This document shows positions 19,186 through 40,756 of a stretch of DNA of 64,000 nt, in pieces. Each line of letters begins with the position of its first letter. The stretch's first letter is position 1. Below the pieces are notes generated by a model. It was not told where the DNA came from and searched no databases. It saw only the letters and a program-made list of their open reading frames with translations. A program made the position numbers and the translations under genes. Source of the DNA: Lathyrus oleraceus (Eukaryota; Streptophyta; Magnoliopsida; Fabales; Fabaceae); assembly GCF_024323335.1 (NCBI RefSeq), contig NC_066579.1, forward strand, positions 242,789,068 to 242,853,067. The letters run 5' to 3'.

Positions 19186-20538
19186 GCTGCCCCTATTTAA
19201 TCAACTAGAGACCCGAAAGGAAGGCAGCAGTGGCTTTCGCACTTTCGAGGTATCAAGGGATTGAATACAATAAAAACCCAGAGATTTACACTGAAGTGAA
19301 GTGTAGTAACAATGCCTGTCAGAATCGGCAAAGAGGTAATCTTGAAAAAGAATCCGTCTGGTACGGTGAGAATCGGTCTAAACACCGAAAAAGGAATGTT
19401 AGCTTGAATACCAAAATAAATGGTAGTACAAAAATAGACATGGCCTGATTGCCGCTCATCAGTTTGAATACTGGAAATGACTTCGATATGAGCATTAGAA
19501 GATACGAGATTATCAAACATCGGTCTGAGCACCGGGAAACTGGTCTGAATGCCACTTCGGTCTGAATACAGGAAAACTGGCCTGAATGCCACAAGTTGCA
19601 TCGACCTGAACATCGGAAACTTCTTCGATCTGAACATCGGAAAATTAGCCTGAATGCCACTTCGGTCTGGATACCAGAAACTTGGCCTGAATGCCACTTC
19701 TGTCTGAATACCGGGAAATTTGGTCTGAATGCCACTTCGGTCTAAATACCGGAAAAATTTGGCCTGAATGCCACTTCGGTCTGAATACCGGAAAAATGAC
19801 CTGAATGCCACTTCGGTCTGGATACCGGAAACTGGCCTGAATGGCACTTCGGTCTGAATACCGAAAAACTGGCCTGAATGCCGGAAAATTGGCCTGAATG
19901 CCACAAGTTGTGTCGACCTGAACGTCGGAAACTTCTTCGATATGAATATCGGAAAACTGGCCTGAATGCCACTTCGGTTTGAATATCGGAAACTGGCCTG
20001 AATGCCACAAGTTGTGTCGACCTGAACGTCAGAAACTTCTTCGATCTGAATATTGAAAAATTTGCCTGAATGCCACTTCGGTCTGAATACCGGAAAAAAT
20101 TTCATGCCTGTCAGCATCGGCAGAACAGGGAACATGATAATTGAGGCGACACGTGGGCTAACGACCTATGCTAGGGATAATAAGTCATGAACAACCTTCA
20201 GTCTGAGTACTGGAAGCAACTTCTGGCTTATCACTTGGGATACCGAGAATGTCGTATGTGTACATGTGTATGTTTGAATTTTTCGATGGCGTAATGCTCC
20301 ATGAAAATGGAAATGCTACGCGATTTGGGAGGATGCAATGCAATATGATTCTACATGCAGGGATGCGAAATGCTGGAAAGAATGCCAAGCCGAGGCAAGG
20401 AATTCTGCCGGGGAAATGATTACAATCTTCTTGACCCAGGTAATGATGTTGGAGATACACAACACAATGAACGCTTTAGGGAAACGACCGGCCACGCGGT
20501 GTTCTGACAATAACAAAAATAAATAAATTACGAAACAC
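19186..20538 (-). repeat. E-family 3' UTR with minisatellite, copy 1
   Basis: The sequence directly after the LTR (gctgcccctatttaatcaac) is, on the minus strand, the polypurine tract that primes plus-strand synthesis. From about 19528 to 20090 there is a minisatellite of about 34-38 bp, with roughly a dozen variant units built on ggcctgaatgccacttcgg and tctgaataccggaaa. All reading frames through it give repetitive peptides that are not real proteins. The undisturbed F target site (ACTTC, 19480-19484) lies in it. Confidence 0.82.
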
Positions 20539-21874
20539 TATGTTTATACTTCTCATGCATTGTCTAATGCTCATTCATTTCATTCTTTGATTATTTGATT
20601 TGATCATATACTTGTTTATATCTTATCTGTTTGATTAACTGTTGCCTACTTGTATGATGTATGAGGCATATATTTTTATTTGTTTGATTGCCATGAACAA
20701 TCCCTATTCATAATAAATGTACCCCTCTCCCATGAAGTGTATAATGTTTATTCTTTCATTCTTTATTCATCTGTTAATACAAGAATTAAAATGAACATCC
20801 GATAACCATTTCAAAACAAGATCAACTCCTCGATCCAACGTCGAGTAATCATTTTCCAAACTTAACAGAACCAACGTGTATTCCTCCATCCTTTTGTAAG
20901 TCGATTGCTTCATGCATCGCCATTTCTCTTGTAAGTCGATTGCTTCTAGCATCGCCATCTACCTCTTGTAAGTCGATTGCTTCGTGCATCGCCATCTACC
21001 CTTACCCCTGGTTCCTCTCCTTGCTCCATTCGTCGATTCTTGTTCCGTTTAGGTAGCACAATTTTTCCGATATTCAGACCGAAGTGGCATTCAGGCCAAA
21101 TTTTTCCGGTATTCAGACCGAAGTGGCATTCAGGCCAAATTTCCCGGTATTCACACCGAAGTGGCATTCGGGCCAAGTTTCTAGTATCTAGACCGATGTG
21201 GCATTCAGGCCAATTTTACGATGTTCAGATCGAAGAAGTTTCCGACGTTCAGGTCGATGCAACTTATGGCATTCAGGCCAGTTTTCCGGTATTCAGACCG
21301 AAGTGGCATTCAGGCCAGTTTCCCGGGGCTCAAACCGATGGTTGATAATCTCGTATCTTCCAATGCTCAAATCGAAGTCATTTCCAGTATTCAAACTGAT
21401 GAGCGGCATTCAGGCCATGTCTATTTTTGTGCTACCTTTTATTTTGGTATTCAAGCTAACATTCCTTTTTCGGTGTTCAGACCGATTCTCACCGTATAAG
21501 ACGGATTCTTTTTCAAGATTACCTCTTTGCCGATTCTGACAGGCATTTTTACTTCACTTCACTTCAGTGTAAATTTCCGGGTTTTTATTGTATTCAATCC
21601 CTTGATACCTCGAAAGTGCGAAAGCCGATGTTGTCTTCCTTTCGGGTCTCTAGTTGATTGAATAGGGGCAACTTTAATACCCCAAAATTTACCCTTCATT
21701 TTTTCCTGGAAGCATGGGATTTTGTTTCACAATGCATTAGCATCATACTAAGTCATACTCATTTCATACTGTATTAGTGACTTGGAAATCAGGGTTTGAT
21801 TGCTCACTCCTTAACAGAAGGAGCCCACACAAAGCAAGACTGAGAATTGAACTTCATTCTCCGAATATACAAGT
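20539..21874 (+). repeat. Inverted E module 1 (LTR piece, 3' UTR, LTR start)
   Basis: 20539-21058 is the reverse complement of LTR sequence at about 15385-15905. 21059-21672 is the reverse complement of the 3' UTR (19186-19797) and ends in a plus-strand polypurine tract (gattgaataggggcaac). 21673-21874 is the start of a plus-oriented LTR (TG now TT at 21673-21674). It ends at an abrupt switch back to minus-oriented LTR sequence. Together it looks like the deleted 3' end of a plus-oriented E element fused to a minus-oriented one. Confidence 0.8.
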
Positions 21875-24433
21875 GTAAAATATTTTTATGAATTAAAAAC
21901 AAAAACAGCAAAAAATAATGGAAATAAAAAAATGAAAGAGAAAATAAATGAATAAATAGTAATGATGAGCCAGATGGGTGGTGTCAACAGCAACGGTGCA
22001 GGGCCCGGTCCAGGAAACTAACGTGTGACATGAATAAAATGTAGCATTTTAAAAACTCATGTGAACATATCATTTGGTCATGCTGTTGTTTAAGTCACAT
22101 GAGACAAAAAACGAGGTGGACGGACCAGATCAAGGCCAGCGCGCGTGATCCAGCGGTTACGGAGCGTGCCACGTAAGCTCTCTTTCATGCATCCAATGGA
22201 AAACATTAACAGCCATGCAAATGAAAGAAAAACGCGACGTACACAGCCCATTTCTTCCATTTTCTAACCAACATAACTCATGCTACAAGGCTCCAAATGA
22301 GATGATGTAAAAAACAAAGTTTAAGTTTGAAACGAGTAGAACACAATGGTATCTTGTTTTATTAAAAATAGTGACTTGAACATAGAGAAAAGTGAACAGC
22401 AAGGGGGCTTCATGCACGCGGATTCAACAAAAAATTTAACAACACAAACTTAAGTTCAACAATAATGTCTCATGGTGAGGACTTTACAAGCATGCACAAC
22501 ATATCATTAACATGAAAAAAAACATGGAACAAGCATGGCATAATGGAAAAGTAAGCATGGTAAAGGCATGATAGTTATGAATAAGCATGACAATGGTATG
22601 AACAACATGATGAACAAACATGACAAGCATAGAAAAACAATAATGAACAAGTCAAAGAATGCTTACCTAGTGGTTGAAAGGTCCACTGCCCCTTTAAGAT
22701 GGAGGGATGGAAGGAAAATGAGATGCTTGTGCTTTGAGAACTTTGCCTTGCTTGCTCTTGCTCTGAACTTTTGCAGCCACTACCACTTCAGATTAGGGTT
22801 TTAGAAGCTTAAGTATGTAGGGTTAAAGTGTTTCAAATGGGCTTAGATGTATGGTTTAGTTTATGTGCATAATGAATAAAAAATGTGTATAAGTGAGGTG
22901 CATGAGTAAACTCTAATTGTAGCAAAACTTAAGTGAGTGAGACCAAAAGCAAATGTCCAAATGAGGAAATGCAAGGGCTGGCCTTTTTTTTGTGGTCTGA
23001 CTTGGTTGTTTGGCTGCAGCATAAAAATAGTCCAACAGGGTGACTTAAGGCTTTATAACTTGATGATTACATGTCCAAATGGCAAGGTAGTGCAAACAGT
23101 AGAAAGAGGGTATGGAGCTTAGCACTTTTCATGTTGAACACGAATTGAAATGATGAGTGGAAAGAGGTGAAAAATGGCCATAAAGTTCAGGTCTCATAGT
23201 TGTAGAATGGTTGGGCCAGTTTGGCCTAAATGCTGTCAAAAAATTCAGTCTATGATACCAACTTTAGATGAGTGTATCTTTCAAACCAATGATCCAAATG
23301 GGATGATTCCAAAAGAATGTGAAAGAGGACATATCAAGGTACAACTGTCATGAAGAAAGTATTTCAAAAGATGCCTTGAAGTGCAAGAAATCTGGCCCAT
23401 AAGTTTTGACAAATTTTGAAGATTTTGGAATTAGAAAATTTTCTAAGTGTCTTAAAATTATGTCTTACTTTGACCAAGCATAACTTTCTCAATTTTAATC
23501 CAAATGAAACAAACTTTATATCTCTATAAAGCTTGGAACAAGAGGAACAACTTTCATGTTGGAGAAATGTTCAAATGGAGCTTGCATCTTGATGGAATAT
23601 GGGCTTAAAGTGGGTCCAAAGATCATAAAAACTTGCCCTAAATGGAAAGTCAACTATTTCCAAATTTAGTAACTTTTCAAACTCCTTATTAAATGATGAA
23701 CCCATGATCCAACCTTGATTGAATTTCACATGTAGGCTCCCTTAGGCATGAATTTTGAGATTCCACTTTCAAAATGTCAGGGGATGACTTTTCTGGCCCT
23801 ACAGTTTACTTTTCCCAATCTGTTTGATTCCCGATTCCATTGATCAATTGAAGCACCTCTAGCTCAAATAAAGAGCTGATTTTTTGTATGTAGACCCTTA
23901 TGGACATATGGAGGGCCATGGAAATGAGTTTCACCCAAGGAATCAGAAATAAACCAATTTTATACCAAACCTTAGTTTTAGGGCAAAATGATCAAGAACT
24001 GATTGCACTGACTCCCAATGGATCTTTCTGAGATAATTGTGGATTTTCTTAGGCCAAGATGCCTCTCTAATCATGACATGAATGAGCCCCCTTTTCTTCC
24101 CACCAAACATTGCCTGTTGCAGATAGCCATGAAACCCTAATTTCTGATTAAATGCAGATGCACACTCTGAGAGCTCTGAATCTTCCACTGAAGAACTGTA
24201 GACCACCTTAAGATACTTGGACCACCTCGAGACTTGTATATTCGGAGAATGAAGTTCAATTCTCAGTCTTGCTTTGTGTGGGCTCCTTCTGTTAAGGAGT
24301 GAGCAATCAAATCCTGATTTCCAAGTCACTAATGCAGTATGCAATGAGTATGACCTAGTATGAGGCTAATGTAGTGTGAAACAAAATCCCATGCTTCCAG
24401 GAAAAAATGAAGGGTAAATTTTGGGGTATTACA
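21875..24433 (-). repeat. E-family LTR, partial copy 2
   Basis: Repeats 16635-19185 at a constant offset of about 5240 bp, ending in the same GGGGTATTACA. The left part of the LTR is missing because the copy starts at the switch point taaaatatttttatg. Sample divergence from copy 1 is about 4%. Non-coding. Confidence 0.85.
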
Positions 24434-24732
24434 GCTGCCCCTATTCAATCAACTGGAAACCTGAAAGGAAGACAGCAGCGGCTTTCACACTTTCGAGGTA
24501 TCAAGGGATTGAATACAATAAAAACCCGGAAATTTACACGGAAGTGAAGTGAAGTAACAATGCCTGTCAGAATCGACAAAGAGGTAATCTTGAAAAAGAA
24601 TTCGCCTGGTACGGTGAGAATCGGTCTGAACACCGAAAAAGGAATGTTAGCTTGAATACCAGAATAAATGGTAGCACAAAAATAGACATGGCCTGATTGC
24701 CGCTCATCAGTCTGAATACTGGAAATGACTTC
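24434..24732 (-). repeat. E-family 3' UTR copy 2, left part
   Basis: Polypurine tract (minus strand) and the first 300 bp of the 3' UTR, as at 19186-19484. It is cut at 24732 by element F and continues at 35472. The last five bases, ACTTC (24728-24732), are the F target duplication. Confidence 0.88.
24728..24732. other. Target site duplication of F, left
   Basis: ACTTC directly before the TG of the left LTR. Its partner is at 35467-35471. The same target occurs once, uninterrupted, in the homologous UTR copy at 19480-19484. Confidence 0.92.
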
Positions 24733-26755
24733 TGTCATACGGTGAACTGACTTGGGGTGTTTTGCTTTTTATCGCAATGTCGCGGATAGCAAGAGTCGCC
24801 ACCGACTTTTCTTTTATCCAATAAGGAAAGGTGGAAAAGAACAGGAAAGACCTCAATAGATTTGGGTTCGGGAGGTACATTATACAAAGGGAAGGTATTA
24901 GCACCCTTTGTATCCATGGTTATCCATGGGCTCTTAATTGCTGGATCACTTATATTTTTGTCTGAAAAGTGTTGGTGAATTGTTTAGAAAATGTTTTGAA
25001 AAGAGAGTTTAACTTTGTAATGATTCTCGTATGAATGTATACAAAGTGGTTATCTCGTTTAGTTTTGAAAGTTGTTTAGAAAAATATAACTCGGTAATGA
25101 TTCTAGTATGAATGTATACCAAGTGGTGATTTTCCAAAAGAGGTTTTGAAAGGTGTGAGTGTTGAAAATGTTTTAGGTTATGATCCAGTAATTGAGAGTT
25201 ATACCTTCCTGAGGTCGTTATGGGCATTTCCTATCCTTATGAGGGTAAAACTGTCCTTACTATTGAGAAGTAAGTAATTTTACCCTTTGGATGTAAAAGG
25301 GTCATCGTAGGGTCATCGATAGGTCATTGAAGGCAACAGTTGGAAGGATACCTTAGCATTCGAAGGGACGATCATCATTTAACTGCAGGCTACACCGAAG
25401 GGTCATCGAGGGACGAAATCATATATTCGAAGGCAACATCCGAGGGACTATGATGATTTAACCGAAGGGTCTTTGCTAAGGATATCCCCATGCTCGCGGG
25501 ACATGACCGTAATATCGAAATCGTGGGGTAATAAAGAGAGGTCCGATATTATTTATTTAAAGTCCGGATTTTAACAATTAATTAAATAGCCGTAATCAGT
25601 CAGGTAATTAGGTCCACAGGAAACCAATGAAATCAATACATTAAAAATCAAGCTTGGTGATTCAAGATGAATCTCCATATTAAACTTAGATCATCCAAAT
25701 GCCACCTCCTCAAGAATGTCCACACCTCAAGCGGCATGCCTAGCCGGTTATTTCTTTGGAAGTATGCTAGCCTTTACATCATGCAACGCACGGATTAGAG
25801 CATTGAGGCAAAATGCAATTGGAAATTGCCCCATAAAATAAATATAACAATCAGAAATTTAAGCCAAATAATGCAGAATCATGATTAGCTGAACATAAAA
25901 TGGACAACAAAGAGACAAAACAGCCACTGTCCCGTTCGCCTCTGCTTCGCCTAGCGAAGGCTCGCTGCAGGCTCGCCTAGCGATGAGCTAGCGAGCGGCC
26001 ACGGGTTTGGAATTTGACAGCAGCATGACTTCCGAAAACCTGCACTCTTATGGCATTTGATCACAGGCATAGCATAGGCAATTATACAGGATGTTCATAC
26101 TTAGATTCACATACGAAATCGAATTACATATCAAAGCTTTAATCAGGATGCATCATGTATGTAAAGAATATCAATTGTAAACGTAAAACAACGATGATAC
26201 GCAAACCTGTGTGCAATTGCGATATTGAAAGGGACTGGTTGCTTGGAAGCCGGATTGAGTTGAGCGGCGGTAGCTTCGGAGCGGAGAAGCGGCCTTCAGG
26301 GTTTCTGCACTCGGAACTTTCTAAAATAGCCTCCAGGGTTTCTGTGCCAGGGTTTTCGTCCCTCTTCCTCCGTTTTTCGTCCGTCTGTCTGTGTCTTTTT
26401 CGTGGCAGAGGAGCATGTATTTATAGTAGTGGCAGTGGTGACCTAATGGGCTTAAAATGAGGTCCAAAAATTCAAATTCTCGCAAGCTTCGCTAGGCGAA
26501 GGAATTGCTCGCCTAGCGAGCAAGCTAGGTCTGGGCTTTTTGCTGGATCCGATGCTTCGCTGGGCGAGTGGCATGATGAGATGTTCGCTAGGCGAAGGAA
26601 TTGCTCGCCTAGCGAGCAAGCTATTTTGGGCCACTTTGGATTAGGCCTGTTGTGAGCTGGGCTTTTGTCCATTTAATATCAGTGCCTTGCAGATCAAGTC
26701 AGAGGGTCTTGGAAAATGCTTTGTAATATCAACGGGCAAATTTTGGGGTATGACA
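24733..26755 (-). repeat. 3' LTR of F (2023 bp)
   Basis: On the plus strand it starts TGTCATACGGTGAAC and ends GGGGTATGACA. It contains a minus-strand TATA box (26418-26425) and clusters of a CpG-rich near-palindrome (cgctaggcgaag/ctcgcctagcgag) near 25940-25995 and 26487-26630. An Ogre-type landmark (gggaaggtattagcaccc) lies at 24890-24907. ORFs inside are not genes. Confidence 0.93.
26418..26425 (-). promoter_or_regulatory. TATA box in the F 3' LTR
   Basis: Reads TATAAATA on the minus strand (ctataaatacatgctcc), the sense direction of F. Being in the 3' LTR, it could drive readout transcription toward lower coordinates into the E repeats. Confidence 0.6.
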
Positions 26756-26768
26756 GCTGCCCCTGTTC
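26756..26768 (-). promoter_or_regulatory. Polypurine tract of F
   Basis: The minus strand reads gaacaggggcagc directly before the 3' LTR. A G-rich purine run abutting TG is the usual primer for plus-strand DNA. The E family uses a very similar tract (gaataggggcagc). Confidence 0.8.
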
Positions 26769-27237
26769 AATATTCTTGCACCGAGAGAGTAGAATGGTAT
26801 GTGCCGTTCGTGGTCTGGAGGTGAAAGATTATTGAACACTATAATGCCCCGAAAATTTGCGCTTGTCCATTAGGAGCTAGTCTTGATGGAGATGGGCTTA
26901 GAGGGGCCATCCAGGAAACCTGATGAGGAGATTTCCAGATTGTGTCGTACGCTAGACGATATCTGGAGACATGGGTGTCACACCGGGTCGTACATCAGAC
27001 CGTATAGTGAATCATCCATCATGCTGTTGACTTCGCTGGGGAGTCAGAGTATGTTATACACTGCTGGGGATAAGGGATTAGAATGGATCGTATATTAGAC
27101 CGTGTCTGAATACCAGAGTGAGTTATTCATTAGGCGGATGACTTTGCTGGGGATGAAAGATCAGAATGGATCGTACGCTAGATCGTATCTGAGTCGCAGA
27201 ATGAGCCGTACGTTAGGCTGAATCTGCTGAAAAGGGA
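26769..27237 (-). other. F 3' UTR, proximal part
   Basis: Non-coding stretch between the polypurine tract and the tandem arrays. It has scattered short repeats related to the array (for example gaatggatcgta and ccgtacgttaggctgaatctgc). No ORF with recognisable similarity. Confidence 0.7.
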
Positions 27238-28203
27238 GTAGTCGTATACAAGACTACCATTCAGAAATGTACCTGTCCGAAGGTAGCATCTGAGGGGATG
27301 AAGGTCCAACTTGGCCGTACATTAAACTTTATCTGAGCAGAATGAGCCGTCCATTAGGCTGAATCTGCTGAAAAGGGAGTAGTCGTACACTAGACTACCA
27401 TTCAGAAATGTACCTGTCCGAAGGTAGCATCTGAGTAAGGGAATAGTCGTATACCAGACTACCATTCAGGAATGTACCTGTCCGAAGGTAGCACCTGAGC
27501 CAGGGAGTAGCCGTATACCAGACTACCATTCAGGAATGTACCTGTCCGAAGGTAGCACCTGAGCAAGGGAATAGTCGTATACCAGACTACCATTCAGGAA
27601 TGTACCTGTCCGAAGGTAGCACCTGAGCAAGGGAATAGTCGTATACCAGACTACCATTCAGGAATGTACCTGTCCGAAGGTAGCACCTGAGCCAGGGAGT
27701 AGCCGTATACCAGACTACCATTCAGGAATGTACCTGTCCGAAGGTAGCACCTGAGCAAGGGAGTAGCCGTATACCAGACTACCATTCAGGAATGTACCTG
27801 TCCGAAGGTAGCACCTGAGCCAGGGAGTAGCCGTATACCAGACTACCATTCAGGAATGTACCTGTCCGAAGGTAGCACCTGAGCAAGGGAGTAGCCGTAT
27901 ACCAGACCACCATTCAGGAATGTACCTGTCCGAAGGTAGCACCTGAGCAAGGGAGTAGCCGTATACCAGACTACCATTCAGGAATGTACCTATCCGAAGG
28001 TAGCACCTGAGCAAGGGAGTAGCCGTATACCAGACTACCATTCAGGAATGTACCTGTCCGAAGGTAGCACCTGAGCAAGGGAATAGTCGTATACCAGACT
28101 ACCATTCAGGAATGTACCTGTCCGAAGGTAGCACCTGAGCCAGGGAGTAGCCGTATACCAGACTACCATTCAGAAATGTACCTGTCCGAAGGTAGCATCT
28201 GAG
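27238..28203. repeat. 64-bp tandem array in the F 3' UTR
   Basis: One isolated unit at 27238-27301, then about 13 units from 27379 at an exact 64-bp period. The core is accattcaggaatgtacctg followed by tccgaaggtagcacctgagc. Units fall into two types (atagtcgtatacc and gtagccgtatacc; gagcaaggg and gagccaggg), and neighbouring units with the same variants suggest amplification in blocks. Tandem arrays between pol and 3' LTR are a known habit of Ogre-type elements. Translations through it are repetitive and not proteins. Confidence 0.92.
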
Positions 28204-28560
28204 GATTTGACGGTCTAACTTGGTCGTACATTAGACTGTCACTGAGCAGAATCTGGTCTAACTTGGTCGTACATTAGACTATATCTGGGCAGAATCCGAG
28301 GACTTGACGGTCTAACTTGGTCGCACATTAGACTGTCACTGAGCAGAATCTGGTCTAACTTGGTCGTACCTTAGACTATATCTGGGCAGAATCCGAGGAC
28401 TTGACGGTCTAACTTGGTCGCACATTAGACTGTCTTTACAGAATCTGACTTGAAGGTCTAACTTGGTCGTACATTAGACTGTCTTTGAGTGGTATTTGAA
28501 AATTTGAAGGTCTAACTTGGTCGTACATTAGACTGTATTTGAGTAGTTGAAGGTCAAAAT
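28204..28560. repeat. Second tandem array in the F 3' UTR (43-54 bp units)
   Basis: About eight units containing ggtctaacttggtcgtacat and tagactgt or tagactatat. They alternate in length, giving a higher-order repeat of roughly 97 bp at the start. It merges into degenerate copies up to about 28640. Confidence 0.85.
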
Positions 28561-28859
28561 GGATCGTACGCTAGATCGTATCTGAGTGGAAGGAGTCATT
28601 TGTTGAGCTGAATCAGAATGAACCGTACGTTAGACTATATCTGATAGTATTTGTATATGCTGTATTTGCAATAAATGTCTGGGATGGGCTTATAGATGCC
28701 ATCGTTAGGAGGATGTCAGAATGAATGTTGTCATGGAGTGTATCTGAAAGATGTAGTTGAATCCTGAATGTAATTGATAAGGATGTCCGTCTGAATGGAC
28801 CTTTGTTTTGACTATGTCAGGAGGATAATTGACCTGAAAAATAAGGTTAGCTTCATGCC

Positions 28860-29060
28860 ATGTCATGATGCATGAGATGCAAATGTTGTATGCATGCGTA
28901 TGCTGTGAAATGATGTAATGAGTGAATTATGCGTCTGAAATAAATGCGAACATTGTATGCATGTATATGTTATGAAATGATGTAATGTATATGATGCGGA
29001 ATGAACATTGTATGTAGGTATGTGATGTGAAGTGATGTAATGAATGCACTATGTGTCTGA
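28860..29060. repeat. Short tandem repeats (~65 bp, three copies)
   Basis: Three imperfect copies built on gaacattgtatgcatgtatatg, gaaatgatgtaatg and a gcgtctgaaa-type end. Part of the F 3' UTR. Confidence 0.75.
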
Positions 29061-29911
29061 AACGTTCTTCCAGGGGACTCTACTGGGGAAATAAAACTCA
29101 GTCTTCTGGTCGGAGATATTTGTATTGATGATCCTTTCTTAGCTGAGGGATTTGATTTCTGTCTGATGGTAGAAACATTCGACAGAGCCTGGCTGGGGAT
29201 AGAAGAGATGACCAATTCGTCTAGTGATGCCCATTTCTTCTGGGGAATAACTGGCTTAGCTGGGGAATCGAATTAGCAACAGATTCATTGGGAAGCATGA
29301 TTAGACCTTCTCCTCGATCCTGAAGTCGTGTAGTAATTGCTATTACTATTCTAGGCATGTATTTTTGGTAAACATTGATCATATTCAAATGCATATATCA
29401 ATTCAAGTTAAATCAATGGATGTTTACGCAAACAAAACAGAGAAAGTAAAATAACAACATTTTTTCCGAAATGAAATGGCATTGATTTTGAAAGAGGGCC
29501 TATACATAGGCAATTTGAGTACAAGGAGACAGAAATCCTAGTAAGAGGAAATTGTCAGGCAAACAAAGAGAAAGCTATGCAGAAAAAGTCCTATCGATTC
29601 TAATTCCACCACTGTCATTATGTCTTCAAGCATCTCATCTCCTGCTGTCGGATAGAAGCGATGGGCTTGTTCAGTCCCTTGAACTTGGTTGGAGCAGACA
29701 GAGAACGGGGCATAGTCATACGCTTTATTCCCTAATTTTTGCCTGGACCGCCTTTTCAGGTTTTCAGTCCACCAGGATACCCCTTTTTGCCCAAGCCGCC
29801 TTTTCAGGTTTTCGACTTGCCGGGTGTACATTAGTATATGTTTATCCCTAATTTTTGCCCGAACCCTTTTGGTTCGCCGGGATGCCCTTACTTTTGCCTA
29901 GATCCGTCGAC
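29061..29911 (-). other. F 3' UTR, distal part
   Basis: Non-coding stretch between the arrays and the end of the integrase remnant. It contains repeated tggggaa motifs and, near 29740-29890, repeated cgccttttcaggttttc blocks that also occur after the integrase in element M (50165-50240). I see no gene. Confidence 0.7.
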
Positions 29912-30397
29912 CTAGCGGGTCTCTTTTATGCGTAGTATTTTTTTAACTATGTCAGCGTTCACAGGATGCGGGAACTCTTTGCCATCCGTTGTAGCAAGCA
30001 TCATGGCTCCACCAGAGAATACCTTCTTAACTACAAATGGCCCTTCGTATGTGAGAATCCATTTGCCCCTGGGATCACCTTGTGGTAGAATGATACGCTT
30101 GATCACCAAGTCGCCAATTTGATATACCTGTCTCTTGACCTTTTTGTTAAATGTCTGGGTCATGCGCTTCTGATATATCTGTCCATGACAAACAGCCGCA
30201 AGTCTCTTCTCATCGATCAAGTTTATCTGGTCGAGTCGAGTCTGAATCCATTCATCCTCATCTAAGCCTGCATCTTTCATAATTCTTAGAGAGGGAATCC
30301 GAACTTCCACTGGTAAAACGGCTTCCATTCCATAGACTAAAGAGAACGGAGTTGCCCCCTGTCGAAGTACGCAACCATGAAGAGCAAGAGGTAACAT
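29912..30397 (-). pseudogene. Integrase C-terminal remnant of F (open, 161 codons)
   Basis: An open frame matching the integrase end of M. It includes F-S-L-V-Y-G-M-E-A-V-L-P-V-E, then E-K-R-L-A-A-V-C-H-G-Q, a basic stretch, and G-K-W-I-L-T-Y-E-G-P-F-V-V-K-K-V-F-S-G-G, the GPY/F-type module. It lacks a catalytic core. The first part begins after a frameshift, so it is a C-terminal fragment and not a working protein. Whether it is expressed is unknown. Confidence 0.82.
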
Positions 30398-31215
30398 CTC
30401 ATGCCAGTCTTTGTACGTTATGTCATTTTTTGTATGATCTTCTTGATATTCTTATTAGCAGTCTCCACGGCGCCGTTCGTCTTTGGCCGGTACGGAGAAG
30501 AGTCATGGTGCTTTATTTTGAACTGCGTGTAGAGCTCAGTTTAGTACCATTATCAGTGATAACTCTCTCAGGAGACAGCAGGTTTCTCAAGTATATTTGA
30601 TGTAATCCATCTTAGAAATCAATAAAGTGGTATGATTCAACATATACTGTCTTAGTCGGCGAGCAGCCTAGGCCAAAGCGTAGCAAGCTTTCTCGAGCTG
30701 TGAGTATCTTGTTTCACAGTCGGTACCTTTTGCTAAGGCAGTATATGGCATGCTCTTTTCGACCAGACTCGCCATGTTGCCCCAGCACACCCTATTGAAT
30801 TTTCTAACACGGTCAGATACCTAGCTAGAGGTCTTCCTTCCACTGGTAGCATCAGGATGGGAGATTCTTGGAGATACTTCTTGATTTTGTCGTTCATCAT
30901 TCCATACCATCTCTTGATTTTTCTTTTTTGGTAATTTGAAGATGGGTTTGCAGGTAGCAGTCAAATGTGGGATGAATCGGGCAATGTAATCCGAGTGCCC
31001 CAAGAAACCTCTGACTTCTTTCTTGTCTATTTCAGTACCCATTGCAATTTCAATTGATTCCTCCTGCGGCTGTATGGTCTTTTCTTCTTGTAGTAACAGT
31101 CTGACAAGTTCACCAGGGACTTCACAATCTTCCTCGCTTCCATCCTCGGCTTGGTAGATCGGATTTTCAAAGTCATAATGAACAGTAGCAGAACTATTAT
31201 CAACAGGATCCAGAG
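30398..31215 (-). pseudogene. Deleted pol remnant of F (pre-RT, RT/RNase H edge, integrase pieces)
   Basis: In order on the minus strand: the acidic region before RT (S-E-E-D-C-E-V-P-G-E-L), ending in E-I-D-K-K-E-V; then directly R-G-F-L-G-H-S-D-Y-I-A-R-F-I-P-H-L-T-A-T-C, which belongs after the RT active site. The whole RT core is missing. RNase H pieces follow with frameshifts, then the text jumps to the second aspartate region of integrase (V-I-T-D-N-G-T) and the catalytic-glutamate region (Y-R-P-K-T-N-G-A-V-E). The RT join lies in a short repeated aagaagt-type sequence, which suggests deletion at microhomology. Confidence 0.82.
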
Positions 31216-31436
31216 TGGATATGGATCGGAAAACTGTTACGTGCGTGTGTGCAAGAAAACATAGCTTGTTTTGAAAAAAATGACAGGAAAGATAAAGAGC
31301 GCAATATTTGAATGCAAAAAGTCCATTGATTTATTGAATATGAATATGCTTATGAAATGACAAAACCCTTGAAAAATTAGCTATTATGCCCCGGGTATAG
31401 ACACAATGCTTTGAAACACAAAAATAGCAATAACAA
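31216..31436 (-). other. Likely remnant of the Ogre-type intron in F
   Basis: It follows the gag ORF stop directly. The minus strand reads ..ga|gtaattgtt, the same donor form as in the M intron. The stretch is T-rich and AT-rich, and possible acceptors (cgtaacag, aacaag) lie near 31230-31275. Downstream the pre-RT frame is open. I could not fix an acceptor that keeps the frame, so the intron end and its use are uncertain. Confidence 0.5.
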
Positions 31437-32546
31437 TTACTCCTGACTAAAGGAAATCGGGATAGTGTCTTCAGCCTTCCAATTATTGGGTCCGTCACCA
31501 ATTGTTGGGAAAATCCAGCTATCCAAGTCATAATCGTTATCAGTATCTTCCACAGTATTGACAGTCTCGTCATGATTAGGCAGAGGGGCAGTGATGCCAT
31601 TAGGAGTCTCCGGAGGATCAAAGATAGTCGCGTGTATCTTCCCACTTCGAATGCCACTTTCAACATGTTCACCTGTTAATATAAGTTCAGTGAAACCCAA
31701 TGAGGAACTCCTCAATAGATGGCTGTAGAATGGGCCAGTCAGTGTGCTCATGAACATGTCCACTAATTCTCGATCAGTCATAGGGGGTTTGACTCTGCCA
31801 GCCAAATCTCTCCACTTTTGAGCATATTCTTTGAAACTTTCTTTAGATCCCATAGTCATATTCTGCAACTGTAGCCGAGTAGGCGCTAGTTCAGAATTAT
31901 ACTGGTACTGTTTATAGAAAGCAGTTGCTAAATCAGTCCATGTGTGGATGTCAGAGCTCTCGAGCTGATAATACCACTCCAATTGTGTGCCAGACAGACT
32001 CTCTTGGAAGAAATGGATCCAGAGCTTCTTATTAGTGGTATACGGCTGAATCTTTCTCACGTAAGCTCTCAAATGCATCCGAGGACAAGATGCCCCATCA
32101 TACTGAGTGAAAGCGGGGACCTTGAATTTGCGAGGAATGATCACATTGGAGACTAGACCCAAACTTTCAAAATCCAGACCGGGCGCCTTCTGACCTTCCA
32201 TAGCTAGCATGCGTTCTTCCAGCAACTTGTACTTGCCATCTTTTGGAGAGTACTGTTCATTCTCGTAATCTTCATCGTCATCCTCAGGGTTGAAAGGATC
32301 AGCATTCTCATTTTCTGAATCTGTCTCTGTTTCCTCTTCTTGATCCTTCGGAATTCTGATTTTGATTCCCGCAGCCTGTCCTTTAAGCCTTCTTCCCGGG
32401 TTAATGTAACTCACAGCTTTCTTGTCTTTCTTTTTCTCGAGCAAGAGAGCTTTCAGTTCCTCCTGCCCCCTGGATAAGTTCAAGATCATCTCCTGGAGTT
32501 GAGCATTCTGAGCATGGAGATCCTTGACAGTTTGTTCGAGGTCCAT
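31437..32546 (-). CDS. Gag-like protein of element F (369 aa, intact)
   Basis: The only long undamaged retroelement frame in the window. Residues 1-40 are heptad-like and probably form a coiled coil. Residues 66-105 are very acidic. Residues about 138-285 match the retrotransposon Gag domain (F-K-V-P-A-F-T-Q-Y-D-G, W-I-H-F-F-Q-E-S-L-S-G, F-K-E-Y-A-Q-K-W-R-D-L-A). The last ~45 residues (D-G-P-N-N-W-K-A-E-D) resemble the end of the Ogre protease ORF, so the frame looks like gag fused to the tail of pro by deletion. No zinc knuckle and no protease D-T-G motif are present. Gag assembles the particle. It could package F RNA or interfere with a full-length relative. Confidence 0.85.
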   Translation of the reverse strand: MDLEQTVKDLHAQNAQLQEMILNLSRGQEELKALLLEKKKDKKAVSYINPGRRLKGQAAGIKIRIPKDQEEETETDSENENADPFNPEDDDEDYENEQYSPKDGKYKLLEERMLAMEGQKAPGLDFESLGLVSNVIIPRKFKVPAFTQYDGASCPRMHLRAYVRKIQPYTTNKKLWIHFFQESLSGTQLEWYYQLESSDIHTWTDLATAFYKQYQYNSELAPTRLQLQNMTMGSKESFKEYAQKWRDLAGRVKPPMTDRELVDMFMSTLTGPFYSHLLRSSSLGFTELILTGEHVESGIRSGKIHATIFDPPETPNGITAPLPNHDETVNTVEDTDNDYDLDSWIFPTIGDGPNNWKAEDTIPISFSQE

Positions 32547-33410
32547 TTTTCTGTGTGGAGGAAAACCATGAGAACACTGATCCCTTTAGAGTACCTGTTA
32601 TTCTATGTTATGCTATGCAATGCATGAAATGTTTTCAACGCCTTTTGGAATTTAACTTTGCATAAACTACCGAAAAGGGAAACTTTTTTTTTTTGTTTTT
32701 TTTTTTTGTTTTTTTTTTTCATACAAAACAGAGCAAAGTTAAATCCCTAAGTCCTTGAAATGGTTAGTACAATGTTATGATGTCATGATGTTATGATGTT
32801 ATGAGGTTAAATAAATAACAAGCACAAGCAAGTCACACAACCATCATTCCTAGGTTTTAAGTCTTGCATGAGTTCCATAGGTAAGTACCCTCCCCACTGA
32901 AGTTTAGTTGGTTCAACCTGTCCTAGAATAGTAACCGGGTTCTAAAAGGATCTCAAATCATCGACCTTTCCTTAAGTCCACTTCAGTGCAACACCAAGTG
33001 GTTGACCGAAGCTTCCCTAAAGTCCAATCTCAAAGAGTGTAGTATCGAGTCTCAACCAACCCCAGTCGGAACCGAAGTCAGTTATCTCACTACTTTCTAA
33101 TGGCCAGGATGAGTCAATTAGGATTCTAAAGGTCTGGTTAATGCTTTGATGACACCACGCGGAAGCCAAATTTTTCCTCAAGTAACATGAGGAACATCAG
33201 GACAACCAAAGTGTCACATTAACCGTAGCCATCATTTTGACCATTCCAGTATACGCCGGATAGTCGCGATGATCTATTGCTACTTACCTAAGGTACACTA
33301 GATCCGGGTGTAGGATCTTTCACTCAAGAATACCCAAGCAATCCCTTAAAAGTAAATCAGACAATTTTAAATAAGTGATCTTGTTTTTAAGGTAACCTCT
33401 CGTTTTAAGT
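32547..33410 (-). other. Leader of F
   Basis: An 860-bp non-coding stretch between PBS and gag. It includes a poly(T)/poly(A) stretch at 32684-32719 and short atgttatgatg repeats at 32774-32806. It would be the 5' untranslated and packaging region of the F RNA. Confidence 0.75.
32684..32719. repeat. Interrupted poly(T) tract
   Basis: Runs of 10-13 T separated by single G residues (poly(A) with C on the sense strand of F). A simple-sequence expansion in the leader. Confidence 0.9.
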
Positions 33411-33428
33411 TCCCCAGCAGAGTCGCCA
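33411..33428 (-). promoter_or_regulatory. Primer binding site of F
   Basis: The minus strand reads TGGCGACTCTGCTGGGGA four bases after the 5' LTR end. It is identical to the M site and is the undamaged form of the P site. It is the Ogre-type primer site, reported to pair with tRNA-Arg. Confidence 0.88.
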
Positions 33429-33432
33429 GTTC

Positions 33433-35466
33433 TGTCATACGGTGAACTGACTTGGGGTGTTTTGCTTTTTATCGCAATGTCGCGGATAGCAAGAGTCGCC
33501 ACCGACTTTTCTTTTATCCAATAAGGAAAGGTGGAAAAGAACAGGAAAGACCTCAATAGATTTGGGTTCGGGAGGTACATTATACAAAGGGAAGGTATTA
33601 GCACCCTTTGTATCCATGGTTATCCATGGGCTCTTAATTGCTGGATCACTTATATTTTTGTCTGAAAAGTGTTGGTGAATTGTTTAGAAAATGTTTTGAA
33701 AAGAGAGTTTAACTTTGTAATGATTCTCGTATGAATGTATACAAAGTGGTTATCTCGTTTAGTTTTGAAAGTTGTTTAGAAAAATATAACTCGGTAATGA
33801 TTCTAGTATGAATGTATACCAAGTGGTGATTTTCCAAAAGAGGTTTTGAAAGGTGTGAGTGTTGAAAATGTTTTAGGTTATGATCCAGTAATTGAGAGTT
33901 ATACCTTCCTGAGGTCGTTATGGGCATTTCCTATCCTTATGAGGGTAAAACTGTCCTTACTATTGAGAAGTAAGTAATTTTACCCTTTGGATGTAAAAGG
34001 GTCATCGTAGGGTCATCGATAGGTCATTGAAGGCAACAGTTGGAAGGATACCTTAGCATTCGAAGGGACGATCATCATTTAACCGCAGGCTACACCGAAG
34101 GGTCATCGAGGGACGAAATCATATATTCGAAGGCAACATCCGAGGGACTATGATGATTTAACCGAAGGGTCTTTGCTAAGGATATCCCCATGCTCGCGGG
34201 ACATGACCGTAATATCGAAATCGTGGGGTAATAAAGAGAGGTCCGATATTATTTATTTAAAGTCCGGATTTTAACAATTAATTAAATAGCCGTAATCAGT
34301 CAGGTAATTAGGTCCACAGGAAACCAATGAAATCAATACATTAAAAATCAAGCTTGGTGATTCAAGATGAATCTCCATATTAAACTTAGATCATCCAAAT
34401 GCCACCTCCTCAAGAATGTCCACACCTAAAGCGGCATGCCTAGCCGGTTATTTCTTTGGAAGTATGCTAGCCTTTACATCATGCAACGCACGGATTAGAG
34501 CATTGAGGCAAAATGCAATTGGAAATTGCCCCATAAAATAAATATAACAATCAGAAATTTAAGCCAAATAATGCAGAATCATGATTAGCTGAACATAAAA
34601 TGGACAACAAAGAGACAAAACAGCCACTGTCCCGTTCGCCTCTGCTTCGCCTAGCGAAGGCTCAGCGAAGGCTCGATGCAGGCTCGCCTAGCGATGAGCT
34701 AGCGAGCGGCCACGGGTTTGGAATTTGACAGCAGCATGACTTCCGAAAACCTGCACTCTTATGGCATTTGATCACAGGCATAGCATAGGCAATTATACAG
34801 GATGTTCATACTTAGATTCACATACGAAATCGAATTACATATCAAAGCTTTAATCAGGATGCATCATGTATGTAAAGAATATCAATTGTAAACGTAAAAC
34901 AACGATGATACGCAAACCTGTGTGCAATTGCGATATTGAAAGGGACTGGTTGCTTGGAAGCCGGATTGAGTTGAGCGGCGGTAGCTTCGGAGCGGAGAAG
35001 CGGCCTTCAGGGTTTCTGCACTCGGAACTTTCTAAAATAGCCTCCAGGGTTTCTGTGCCAGGGTTTTCGTCCCTCTTCCTCCGTTTTTCGTCCGTCTGTC
35101 TGTGTCTTTTTCGTGGCAGAGGAGCATGTATTTATAGTAGTGGCAGTGGTGACCTAATGGGCTTAAAATGAGGTCCAAAAATTCAAATTCTCGCAAGCTT
35201 CGCTAGGCGAAGGAATTGCTCGCCTAGCGAGCAAGCTAGGTCTGGGCTTTTTGCTGGATCCGATGCTTCGCTGGGCGAGTGGCATGATGAGATGTTCGCT
35301 AGGCGAAGGAATTGCTCGCCTAGCGAGCAAGCTATTTTGGGCCACTTTGGATTAGGCCTGTTGTGAGCTGGGCTTTTGTCCATTTAATATCAGTGCCTTG
35401 CAGATCAAGTCAGAGGGTCTTGGAAAATGCTTTGTAATATCAACGGGCAAATTTTGGGGTATGACA
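33433..35466 (-). repeat. 5' LTR of F (2034 bp)
   Basis: Same ends as the 3' LTR. Differences by reading are T/C at about 25388 versus 34084, C/A at about 25728 versus 34428, and C/A beside an 11-bp duplication (agcgaaggctc) near 34660-34670. The 11-bp event lies within the CpG-rich near-palindromic cluster. Minus-strand TATA box at 35129-35136. Confidence 0.93.
35129..35136 (-). promoter_or_regulatory. TATA box in the F 5' LTR (working promoter position)
   Basis: TATAAATA on the minus strand, followed about 30 bp downstream by the expected start region. This copy would drive the F genomic RNA. Confidence 0.65.
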
Positions 35467-35471
35467 ACTTC
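35467..35471. other. Target site duplication of F, right
   Basis: ACTTC directly after the CA end of the right LTR, matching 24728-24732. Confidence 0.92.
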
Positions 35472-36484
35472 GATATGAGCATTGGAAGATACGCGATTAT
35501 CAAACATCGGTCTGAGCACCGGGAAACTGGCCTGAATGCCACTTCGGTCTGAATACCGGAAAACTGGCCTGAATGCCACAAGTTGCATCGATCTGAACAT
35601 CGGAAACTTCTTCGATCTGAACATCGGAAAATTGGCCTGAATGCCACTTCGGTCTGGATACCGGAAACTTGGCCTGAATGCCACTTCGGTCTGAATACCG
35701 GGAAATTTGGCCTGAATGCCACTTCGGTCTGAATACCGGAAAAATTTGGCCTGAATGACACTTCGGTCTGGATACCGGAAACTGGCCTTAATGCCACTTC
35801 GGTATGAATACCGGAAAACTGGCCTGAATGCCGGAAAATTGGCCTGAATGCCACAAGTTGCGTCGACCTGAACGTCGAAAACTTCTTCGATCTGAATATC
35901 GGAAAACTGGCCTGAATGCCACTTCGGTCTGAATACCGGAAACTGGCCTGAATGCCACAAGTTGCGTCGACCTGAACGTCCGAAACTTCTTCGATCTGAA
36001 TATCGGAAAATTGGCCTGAATGCCACTTCGGTCTGAATACTGGAAAAACTTTCATGCCTGTCAGCATCGGCAGAACAGGGAACATGATAATTGAGGCGGC
36101 ACGTGGGCTAACGACCTATGCTGGGGATAATAAGTCATGAACAACCTTCAATCTGAGTACTGGAAGAAACTTCTGGCTTATCACTTGTGATACCGAGAAT
36201 GTCGTATGTGTACATGTGTCTGTTTGAATTTTTTGATGGTGTAATGCTCCATGAAAATGGAAATGCTACGCGATTTGGGAGGATGCAATGCAATATGATT
36301 CTACAAGTAGGGATGCGAAATGCTGGGGAGAATGCCAAGCCGAGGCAAGGATTTCTGCCGGGGAAATGATTACAATCTTCTTGACCCAGGTAATTTTGTT
36401 GGAGATACATAGCACAATGAACGCTGTGGGGAAATGACCGGCCATGCGGTGTTCGGACAATAACAAAAAAAAATACTGAAACTC
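35472..36484 (-). repeat. E-family 3' UTR copy 2, right part with minisatellite
   Basis: Continues the UTR interrupted at 24732 (gatatgagcattgg follows the target, as at 19485). The minisatellite at about 35505-36045 has the same unit order as copy 1 with small differences. The repetitive peptides it encodes in several frames are not proteins. Confidence 0.88.
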
Positions 36485-37821
36485 TATGTTTATACTTCTC
36501 ATGCATTGTCTAATGCTCATTCATTTCATGCTTTGATTATTTGATTTGATCATATACTTGTTTATATCTTATCTGTTTGATTAATTGTTGCCTACTTGTA
36601 TGATGTATGAGACATATATTTTTATTTGTTTGATTTCCATGAACAATCCCTATTCATAACAAATGTACCCCTCTCCCATGAAGTGTATAATGTTTATTCT
36701 TTCATTCTTTATTCATCTGTTAATACAAGAATTAAAATGAACATCCCATAACCATTTCAAAACAAGATCAAAACCTCGATCCAACGTCGAGTAATCATTT
36801 TCCAAACTTAACAGAACCAGCACGTATTCATCCATCCTTTTGTAAGTCGATTGCTTCATGCATCGCCATTTCTCTTATAAGTCGATTACTTCTAGCATCA
36901 CCATCTACGTCTTGTAAGTCAATTGCTTCGTGCATCGCCATCTACCCTTACCCCTGGTTCCTGTCCTTGCTCCATTCGTCGATTCTTGTTCCGTTTAGGT
37001 AGCACAATTTTTCCGGTATTCGGACCGAAGTGGCATTCAGGCCAAATTTTTCCGGTATTCAGACCAAAGTGGCATTCAGGCCAAATTTCCCGGTATTCAG
37101 ACCGATGTGGCATTCAGGCCAAGTTTCCGGTATCCAGACCGAAGTGGCATTCAGGACAATTTTCCGATGTTCAGATCGAAGAAGGTTCCGACGTTCAGGT
37201 CGATGCAACTTGTGGCATTCAGGCCAGTTTTCCGGTATTCAGACCGAAGTTGCATTCATGCCTGTTACCCGGTGCTCAGACCCGACGTTTGATAATCTCG
37301 TATCTTCCAATGCTCAAATCGAAGTCATTTCCAATATTCAGACTGATGAGCGGCATTTAGGCCATGTCTATTTTTGTGCTACCATTTATTTTGGTATTCA
37401 AGCTAACATTCATTTTTCGGTGTTCAGACCGATTCTCACCGTACCAGACGAATTCTTTTTCAAGATTACCTCTTTGCCGATTCTGACAGGCATTGTTACT
37501 TCACTTCACTTCAGTGTAAATTTCTGGGTTTTTATTGTATTCAATCCCTTGATACCTCGAAAGTGTGAAAGCCGCTGCTGTCTTCCTTCAGGTCTCCAGT
37601 TGATTGAATAGAGGTAGCTGTAATACCCCAAAATTTACCCTTCATTTTTTCCTGGAAGCATGGGATTTTGTTTCACACTGCATTAGCATCATACTAGGTC
37701 ATACTCATTGCATACTGCATTAGTCACTTCAAAATCAGGGTTTGATTGCTCACTCCTTAACAGAAGGTGCCCACACAAAGCAAGACTGAGAATTGAACTT
37801 CATTCTCCGAATATACAAGTC
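36485..37821 (+). repeat. Inverted E module 2
   Basis: Same make-up as module 1: inverted LTR piece (36485 to about 37004), inverted 3' UTR with minisatellite (about 37005-37618), plus-oriented LTR start TGTAATACCCC at 37619, then a switch to minus-oriented LTR at 37822. The LTR start here keeps the TG that module 1 has lost. Confidence 0.8.
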
Positions 37822-39527
37822 TAAAATATTTTTATGAATTAAAAACAAAAATAGCAAAAAATAATGGAAATAAAAAAATGAAAGAGAAAATAAATGAATA
37901 AATAGTAATGATGGGCCAGATGGGTGGTGTCAACAACAACGGTGCAGGCCCTGGTCCAGGAAACTAACGTGTGACATGAATAAAATGTAGCATTTTAAAA
38001 ACTCATGTGAACATATCAATTGGTCATGCTGTTGTTTAAGTCATATGAGACAAAAAATGAGGTGGACGGACCAGATCAATGCCAACGCGCGTGATCCAGC
38101 GGTTATGGAGAGTGCCACGTAAGCTCTCTTTCATGCATCCAATGGAAAACATTAACAGCCATGCAAATGAAAGAAAAACACGACGTACACAACCCATTTC
38201 TTCCATTTTCCAACCAACATAACTCATGCTACAGGGCTCCAAATGAGATGATGTAAAAAACAAAGTTTAAGTTTGAAACGAGTAGAGCACAATGGTATCT
38301 TGTTTTATTAAAAATAGTGACTTGAACATAGAGAAAAGTGAACAGCAAGGGGGCTTCATGCACCCGAATTCAACAAAAAATTTAACAACACAAACTTAAG
38401 TTCAACAATTATGTCTCATGGTGAGGACTTTACAAGCATGCACAACATATCATTAACATGAAAAAAGACATGGAACAAGCATGACATAATGGAAAAGTAA
38501 GCATGGTAAAGGCATGATAGTTATGAACAAGCATGACAATGGTATGAACAACATGATGAACAAACATGGCAAGCATAGAAAAACAGTAATGAACAAGTCA
38601 AAGAATGCTTAACTAGTGGATGAAAGGTTCACTACCCCTTTAAGATGGAGGGATGGAAGGAAAATGAGATGCTTGTGCTTTGAGAACTTTGCCTTGCTTG
38701 CTCTTGCTCTGAACTTTTGCAGCCACTACCACTTCAGATTAGGGTTTTAGAAGCTTAAGTATGTAGGGTTAAAGTGTTTCAAATGGGCTTAGATGTATGG
38801 TTTGGTTTATGTGCATAATGAACAAAAAATGTGTAAAAGTGAGGTGTATGAGTAAACTCTAATTGTAGCAAAACTTAAGTGAGTGAGACCAAAAGCAAAT
38901 GGCCAAATGAGGAAATTCAATGGCTGGTCTTTTTTTGTGGTCTGACTTGGTTGTTTGGCTGCATCATAAAAATAGTCCTACAGGGTGACTTTAAGGCTTT
39001 ATAACTTGATGATTACATGTCCAAATGGCAAGGTAATGCAAACAGTAGAAAAAGGGGATGGAGCTTAACACTTTTCCTGTTTAACACAAATTGAAATGAT
39101 GAGTGGAAAGAGGTATAAAATGGCCATAAAGTTCAGGTCTCATAGTTGCAGAATGGTTGGGCCATTTTGGCCTAAACGCTGTCAAAAAATTCAGTCTATG
39201 ATACCAACTTTAGATGAGTGTATCTTTCAAACCAATGATCCAAATGGGATGATTCCAAAAGGATGTGAAAGAGGACATAGCAAGGTACAACTGTCATGAA
39301 GAAAGTATTTTCAAAAGATGCCTTGAAGTGCAAGAAATATGGCCCATACATTTTGACAAATCTTGAAGATTTTGGACTTAGAAAATTTTCTAAGTGTCTT
39401 AAAATAATGTCTTACTTTGTCCAAGCATAACTTTCTCAATTTGAATCCAAATGAAACAAACTTTATATCTCTAGAAAGCTTGGAACAAGAGGAACAACTT
39501 TCATGTTGGATAAATGTTTAAATGGAG
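37822..39527 (-). repeat. E-family LTR, partial copy 3 (truncated at the P junction)
   Basis: Repeats 16635 to about 18335 and 21875 to about 23575. It breaks off at aaatggag, where P RT sequence (agagatttgaacaaagc) begins. The lost part would include the LTR end and any target duplication. Confidence 0.85.
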
Positions 39528-40756
39528 ATTAGAGATTTGAACAAAGCTAGTCTGAAAGATGATTTCCCTCTGCCGGACATTGATGTGTTGGTAGACAATA
39601 CAACTAAATTCAAAGTCTTTTATTTTATGGACGAATCTTCCGGCTATAATCAGATCAAGATGGCACCCGAAGATATGGAGAAGACCATATTCATTACACC
39701 CTGGGGAACATTCTGTTATAGAGTGATGCCTTTTGGTTTAAAGAATATTGGTGCAATATACCAGAGAGCTATGACCACTCTTTTTCCTGATATGATGCAT
39801 AAGGAGATTGAGGTTTGTGTTGATGATATGATTGCCAAATCAAGAGATGAAGAAGAGCGTGTTGAGCATTTATTGAAGTTATTCCAGCATTTGAGGAAGT
39901 ATAAACTCCGCTTGAATCCCAATAAGTGTACTTTTGGTGTTCGTATTGGTAAGTTGTTGGGCTTTATTGTCAGTGAGAAGGGTATTGAAGTTGATCTTGC
40001 CAAGGTCAAAGCAATAAAAGAAATGCTTGTTCCCAAAATTGAGAAGCAAGTCAGAGGTTTTCTCGGCCGCTTGAATTATATCTCAAGATTTATATCGCAT
40101 ATGACTGCCACTTGTGCACCTATATTCAAGCTTCTTCGGAAAGATCAGTCTTGTGATTGGACCGAAGATTGGCATAAAGCTTTTGAAAGTATCAAAGAGT
40201 ATCTGCTTGAGCCTCATATTCTGTCTCCACCTGTTGAAGGAAGACCTTTGATCATGTATTTGACTATGCTTGATGAAAGTATGGGTTGTGTTCTTGGTCA
40301 GCAAGACGAGGCTGGAAAGAAAGAATATGCAATCTACTACCTCATTAAGAAATTCACCGACTGTGAGACTCGGTATTCTATGCTTGAAAAGACTTATTGC
40401 GCATTGGCTTAGGCTGCTAAACATCTGTGCCAGTATATGTTGAATCATACTACTTGGTTGATATCTAAAATGGATCCAATCAAGTATATTTTTGAGAAGC
40501 CTGCTTTAACTGGGAGGATTGCCCATTGGCAGATGTTGTTATCTGAGTATGATATCGAATACCGATCTCAAAAAGCTATCAAAGGTAGTGTCTTGGCTGA
40601 CCATTTGGGTCACCAACCAATTGAAGAATCTCGGTCAGTACATTATGATTTTCCTGATGAAGAGATTTTGTACTTGAAGAAGGGCCAGATGTTGGTTCCC
40701 GTTGGGGCATGGTATTTAAAGGAGTTGTTAATTAATATGGTAATGGCATTGGGGCA
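39528..40756 (+). pseudogene. P pol: reverse transcriptase and first RNase H
   Basis: RT begins in the middle (R-D-L-N-K-A-S) after the E junction. Later blocks are D-F-P-L-P-D-I-D, F-M-D-E-S-S-G-Y-N-Q-I, M-P-F-G-L-K-N, and the active-site box at 39816-39827, which reads C-V-D-D where M has Y-V-D-D. Connection and RNase H follow (R-G-F-L-G-R-L-N-Y-I-S-R-F-I; I-M-Y-L-T-M-L-D-E-S-M-G-C-V-L-G). A TAG stop replaces TGG at 40410-40412, and a frameshift with a small deletion lies near 40680-40740. The first ATG of the open frame (39522) comes from the E LTR. Confidence 0.88.

Follow-up and report, generated by a model that had tools for sequence, protein, structure and literature searches.

The region analysed here (the window) is a 64,000-nucleotide stretch of the pea genome (Lathyrus oleraceus, RefSeq assembly GCF_024323335.1, contig NC_066579.1, positions 242,789,068 to 242,853,067 of the forward strand). 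It contains a minus-strand long terminal repeat (LTR) retrotransposon, here called F, which spans window positions 24733-35466 by self-comparison and LTR alignment. The initial annotation placed F at 29912-32546, which is too small. The 5' LTR (33433-35466, minus strand, 2034 bp) starts with TGTCATAC and ends with GTATGACA, and the 3' LTR (24733-26755, minus strand, 2023 bp) has the same ends; both are delimited by self-comparison and by alignment with each other. A primer-binding-site-like sequence read from the minus strand (33411-33428) begins with TGG four bases past the 5' LTR. A purine-rich stretch, judged by eye to be an imperfect polypurine tract (26756-26775, minus strand), adjoins the 3' LTR. 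Of the features initially described as retained, the LTRs are in place, as are sequences resembling a primer site and a polypurine tract. Ogre elements are primed by tRNA-Arg; no tRNA genes are found in the 64-kb window.

A 5-bp target site duplication, ACTTC, flanks F on both sides (24728-24732 and 35467-35471). F interrupts one unit of a tandem array, in which each unit is approximately 5.2 kb long. A neighbouring unit, which is 89% identical over 1237 columns, contains a single ACTTC at 19480-19484 and no insert. This unoccupied paralogous site proves the borders and the duplication of F. The tandem array (16635-24732 and 35467-39530) holds approximately 2.3 copies that are 94-96% identical and carries inverted repeats and 37-bp minisatellites. 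It seems to lie inside an Ogre-like element of the plus strand, with the gag half on one side and the reverse transcriptase (RT) half on the other.

The two LTRs of F differ by three substitutions and one 11-bp indel over 2023 aligned sites; six extra gap columns are ragged ends of the aligned segments and not real differences. Assuming 1.3e-8 substitutions per site and year, the insertion is roughly 60,000 years old, or twice that age at half the rate. With 3 differences in 2023 sites, F is the youngest repeat observed in the window, in line with the first description. The other repeat pairs listed are at most 96.9% identical in alignments of at least 120 columns.

Relatives of F are drawn from three protein searches, which gave 146 matches among 1524 candidates, 549 among 1540 and 72 among 84. 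The best 120 of the 146, the best 120 of the 549 and all 72 of the third search were considered, and the matches comprise 300 distinct database proteins in all (numbered with the prefix P below). The named matches of the search with 72 are all from Lathyrus oleraceus. Those listed for the 146-match search are from pea, Vicia villosa and one Lupinus, and those for the 549-match search are from various dicots. Among the matches listed, the proteins nearest to F come from gene models of pea and from open reading frames (ORFs) on short contigs. One plant-type retrotransposon RT, P0200, is recorded under Salmonella enterica and is probably contamination.

After the primer site, the interior of F runs in the order gag, an intron-like interval, linker, RT end, RNase H, integrase core, integrase C-terminus, minisatellites and 3' LTR. 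The gag ORF (31437-32546, minus strand, 369 aa) and the integrase C-terminal ORF (29912-30397, minus strand, 161 aa) have the ends that the initial annotation gave them. The gag ORF is truncated: after an N-terminal helix and capsid it continues in frame with the last part of the Gag-Pro frame, and the nucleocapsid and protease are gone. Its Pfam Retrotrans_gag domain covers residues 179-269 (E = 8e-14). Between the Gag-Pro and RT frames lies a 214-bp interval of the Ogre intron type (31227-31440, minus strand), with splice sites inferred from the gene models of relatives; P0067, P0092, P0141 and P0149 splice ...SFSQE onto the I.TLDPV linker. The 5' GT is kept and the 3' AG is replaced by CCG. 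At the inferred 3' splice site, F reads ...TVFRSIS where P0077 reads ...TICRSIS. Loss of splicing should cost nothing to an element without pol.

The linker exon between protease and RT (31013-31225, minus strand) is open and 85% identical to P0141. Over 102 residues, from the linker across the RT border, P0251 and F share 98% identity. The RT end and RNase H remnant (30573-31012, minus strand) contains frameshifts and stops. The integrase core remnant (30398-30572, minus strand; rve_3 E = 8.4e-4, under the cut-off) is also frameshifted and retains the second aspartate and the glutamate, which we take to be catalytic residues. The integrase C-terminal ORF is open, matches no Pfam family and is 90% identical to P0300 and P0251 (the latter over 140 residues). 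Residues 39-316 of the RT protein P0126, which make up the RT core, have no listed match in F. The same is true of residues 120-448 of the RNase H/integrase protein P0139, from the end of RNase H to the integrase core. No Pfam RT or protease domain is found on the two ORFs and three pieces of F that were tested. The protease, the RT core and the first integrase aspartate are therefore missing, in agreement with the initial annotation. RNase H, most of which it gave as missing, is a frameshifted remnant at about 30573-30891.

Four deletions reduce the coding interior of F, removing the nucleocapsid part of gag, the protease, the RT core and a stretch from RNase H into integrase. Their borders recur in 5, 12, 10 and 1 of the 300 proteins, respectively, when counted as text-pattern matches, which miss divergent copies. 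At the first border (31620-31634, minus strand), the capsid stops at GKI and the frame picks up at DPPETPN, a junction common to P0001, P0067, P0077, P0238 and P0259. The second border (31545-31562, minus strand) is present in P0001, P0067, P0077, P0238, P0092, P0108, P0112, P0114, P0115, P0240, P0241 and P0242, and the pattern misses P0259. Seven proteins (P0138, P0141, P0149, P0239, P0269, P0270 and P0293) have protease-region sequence ahead of the same tail, with DNGSS in five. The third border (31010-31015, minus strand) joins KEV to RGFLGH and is present in P0243-P0247, P0249, P0251 and P0252 and, as variant strings, in P0092 and P0114. Here the pattern misses P0067 and P0077, both of which carry a further deletion. 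P0138 and P0141 contain the undeleted RT-start passage at this position. The fourth border (30570-30575, minus strand) reads LLSPERVITDNG and is common to P0251 only. Similar residues occur at both ends of the second deletion (NAVED-like) and the third deletion (KEV-like), a pattern that would fit a reverse transcriptase that jumped from one short repeat of its template to another.

The frameshifts of F also recur. Its out-of-frame NQEVSPR is found in P0067, P0077 and P0249, and its frameshift signature SIGCAGAT is found in P0245. The borders and at least two frameshift signatures are therefore older than this insertion of F. For five of the proteins (P0001, P0112, P0240, P0245 and P0249) the source is not a chromosome gene model but a contig 689-1202 bases long with an ena or jgi label, which makes modelled introns an unlikely cause of the shared borders.

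Alternatively, F may have been complete when it moved and have lost its enzymes only once inserted; illegitimate recombination is frequent in plant genomes. The initial annotation would have favoured this order of events if F were a unique copy with deletions absent from all relatives. The shared borders and frameshift signatures rule this out. The explanation would survive only if the relatives were copies of the F locus itself, and P0251, P0067 and P0077 show several residue differences each from F. Three LTR substitutions leave little time for the decay of pol. Later loss of the enzymes is extremely unlikely.

On the sequence comparisons, F is a member of a multicopy non-autonomous family. 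Since pol was already dead in its ancestor and the near-identical LTRs mark a recent insertion, F moved using proteins supplied in trans. This mobilisation, which the initial annotation proposed, is well supported. F is very probably a recent copy of a non-autonomous Ogre-type (Ty3/gypsy) family of the pea lineage that used the enzymes of its parent family in trans.

The undeleted modules are still held by pea proteins. P0149 unites the capsid end, nucleocapsid, protease region and linker, and P0141 (10 member sequences) unites the protease region, linker and RT start. We infer that this parent family is the helper of F. The N-terminal part of P0138, a protease-bearing pea model, matches the F LTR in antisense (26536-26727). 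P0298 (157 member sequences) seems to join the linker to the integrase C-terminus; this may reflect a common deletion form or an error repeated across gene models, such as a modelled intron, and P0298 is left out of the border counts. Scans of viral and genome contig collections with gag and with P0298 confirm no relative, and an LTR-end pattern has no matches in viral contigs. A helper partner is not seen within the window, where the F LTR matches nothing else and other pol regions are 66-69% identical to the pol of F.

Several observations weigh against F as a recent family copy mobilised by such a parent. The comparison with relatives is one of proteins, taken from gene models or from ORFs on short contigs, and no single protein among them covers the entire parental gag-pol. 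The protease in P0149 and P0141 has a Pfam E of about 0.004, which is under the curated cut-off. The fourth border is shared with one protein only. Gene conversion between the LTRs could make F seem younger than its true age. At the nucleocapsid junction the sisters read QAATS where F reads HATIF, and two independent deletions are therefore conceivable. A single nucleocapsid deletion is favoured by the common motif HLLRSS, which is present in all six nucleocapsid-deleted sequences (including F) and in one other protein (P0030), with HLLGSS or HFLGSS in 47.

The family would have originated from an Ogre-like parent through a nested series of internal deletions. The RNA of F is presumably transcribed from its own LTR and would be packaged, via signals near its ends, into particles of the full-length parent family. 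Reverse transcription and integration would then be carried out by the enzymes of that family. The yeast elements Ty1 and Ty3 can do without most of their internal sequence if proteins come in trans (PMC4974528).

The initial annotation described the gag of F as undamaged. Its frame is open, but the nucleocapsid with its Cys/His knuckle is lost and the capsid runs directly into the protease-RT linker. The knuckle (C-x2-H-x5-H-x4-C) occurs in 33 of the 237 proteins compared and in none of the six nucleocapsid-deleted sequences (F and five sisters). Packaging of Ty3 RNA requires nucleocapsid (PMC4974528), and the Gag of F is thus poorly placed to package F RNA; packaging would use RNA signals instead. 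None of the five sisters begins at the normal gag start. In F residue numbering, P0001 begins at 113, P0067 and P0077 at 230, P0238 at 256 and P0259 at 264, and contig ends and gene modelling may contribute to these late starts. P0003 (11 member sequences) is 98% identical to F residues 1-225 and ends at 225, where either the contig or the reading frame stops. In several models from pea and Vicia, the start is a methionine near 230. These ends hint at a recurrent break near F gag residues 225-230 (window positions of about 31857-31874).

A sister subfamily (P0114, P0115, P0240, P0241 and P0242) shows the opposite loss, with the capsid gone and the nucleocapsid kept. It is multicopy, with 15 member sequences in P0240 and 10 in P0241. 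Since the F clade lacks the nucleocapsid and these sisters lack the capsid, the family has spread with different halves of gag missing. P0115 is the pea model "transcription factor ABORTED MICROSPORES isoform X1", which ends in the capsid-deleted gag of the F family; a copy of the family seems to lie in or beside the ABORTED MICROSPORES gene.

The initial annotation suggested that gag survives by selection, either because it packages its own RNA in cis or because it confers a competitive advantage. The gag of F is open for 369 codons and the RNase H and integrase core are broken. P0001 (8 member sequences, 257 aa) has an open frame across F residues 113-369, and a gag-only terminal-repeat retrotransposon with a GAG domain (TR-GAG) transposes in Arabidopsis (PMC8704663). 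The translated segments of F have also diverged relatively less than the untranslated linker. Identity between F and the parent-type protein is 95% for the capsid end, 85% for the tail and 85% for the linker, with outgroup medians of 82% (n = 75), 44% (n = 3) and 66% (n = 40), respectively. The outgroup-scaled divergence ratios are about 0.27 for the capsid, 0.26 for the tail and 0.44 for the untranslated linker. The samples of this crude comparison are small and not matched. It points weakly to some constraint on the truncated gag and decides nothing. Selection on gag is nevertheless unlikely. The part of gag that Ty3 needs for RNA packaging is gone, the sisters start late (with the same possible contribution of contig ends and gene modelling) and the subfamily without capsid is multicopy. 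Frames as open as that of gag are also found in the linker and integrase C-terminus, which should have no use in an element that lacks a catalytic core. With only three LTR differences, an open gag would need no selection after insertion, and an open gag frame alone is no proof of selection. What remains of Gag in F, an N-terminal part and capsid without nucleocapsid or protease, is most likely a leftover that the element can do without.

Partial Gag proteins can also act as inhibitors. The p22 protein of yeast Ty1 is a partial Gag that disturbs particle assembly, and it is described as a Gag-derived inhibitor (PMC4599808). By analogy, the truncated Gag of F could be a trans-dominant inhibitor of its parent family. 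The predicted structure of F Gag has low overall confidence (mean pLDDT 54.7, pTM 0.33) and no Foldseek match at E 0.001 or better. The top matches are the capsid lobes of Arc (2.6e-3) and PEG10 (2.0e-2). The matches resemble a capsid C-lobe and make the model only consistent with capsid; structures of Ty1 p22 are among the weak matches (E 0.59 and 0.66), in favour of the inhibitor explanation. The sisters of F do not begin at the normal gag start, and an inhibitor would hurt the transposition of F too. The inhibitor explanation, drawn from sequence and a predicted structure, is very improbable.

The two subfamilies could also be read together. One protease-less parent would have given rise to two non-autonomous subfamilies with complementary Gag halves, the F clade keeping the N-terminal part and capsid and the other clade keeping the N-terminal part and nucleocapsid. 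If both were translated and entered parent particles via the shared N-terminal helix, they would be split-Gag parasites able to complement or restrain the host element. Among the matches listed from searches of open-access literature, no title or opening of an abstract mentions split-gag subfamilies in pea, which is weak evidence of absence. Such a system is decidedly improbable.

Gag-keeping, pol-less Ogres and gag-only plant elements are already known, and F joins that kind. In Lathyrus sativus, two satellite patterns are attributed to 3' tandem arrays of non-autonomous Ogres, from which large deletions have removed pol but not the nearby GAG (PMC7004042). F shares with these the retained gag, deleted pol, downstream tandem repeats and a related legume host. 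The Lathyrus sativus elements are inferred as a class from domain positions around FabTR-54 and FabTR-57 (PMC7004042), whereas for F a single copy is resolved, with its four borders mapped, its nucleocapsid deleted and stubs of pol left; the two are likened by description. Minisatellite arrays occupy 27062-28590 in the 3' untranslated region of F, one of them with 13 copies of a 64-bp unit (27373-28203, 96% matches). Tandem repeats between pol and the 3' LTR are described for Tat elements, and arrays like the 64-bp array are proposed as a source of satellite DNA (PMC7004042).

In autonomous Ogre elements, an intron separates the GAG-PROT and RT reading frames (PMC6317226). F resembles these elements in its 214-bp interval, which has kept the 5' GT but not the 3' AG, and in its tandem arrays (PMC7004042). 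Unlike the autonomous elements (PMC6317226), F has neither PROT nor the RT core, and nothing remains between RNase H and the second half of INT. The second, archaeal-type RNase H of Ogre (Tat branch) would lie in the interval between RNase H and integrase, which is deleted in F at the fourth border. No DUF7745-like ORF of at least 120 aa is listed in F. Pfam identifies DUF7745 ORFs in the window outside F, at 10896-11696 (plus strand) and at 57978-58757. The latter is within a probable minus-strand Ogre-like element at 43121-63646, with likely LTRs at 43121-46939 and 59866-63646 that are 90.5% identical.

Like TR-GAG elements, F has LTRs, a target site duplication and a main gag ORF without a complete pol, and it has moved without its own enzymes (PMC8704663). 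The TR-GAG example ATCOPIA63 is a Copia element with a 562-aa GAG (PMC8704663), unlike F, which is Ty3/gypsy and has a nucleocapsid-less gag and pol remnants. A complete GAG protein is not present in F, where the knuckle is missing. F works like TR-GAG but with a partial gag. Tos17 and BARE-2 are also defective elements that use the proteins of a relative and keep cis signals; both lack GAG (PMC3977881), whereas F retains part of gag and no working pol. Recently active non-autonomous Retand elements are reported as well (PMC11963269).

F is a recent, fully bounded Ogre-type element that moved without its own enzymes, and an undeleted pea family is its likely helper. The sister subfamilies that lack different halves of gag are a natural deletion series, which could show the parts that a plant LTR retrotransposon must itself supply.

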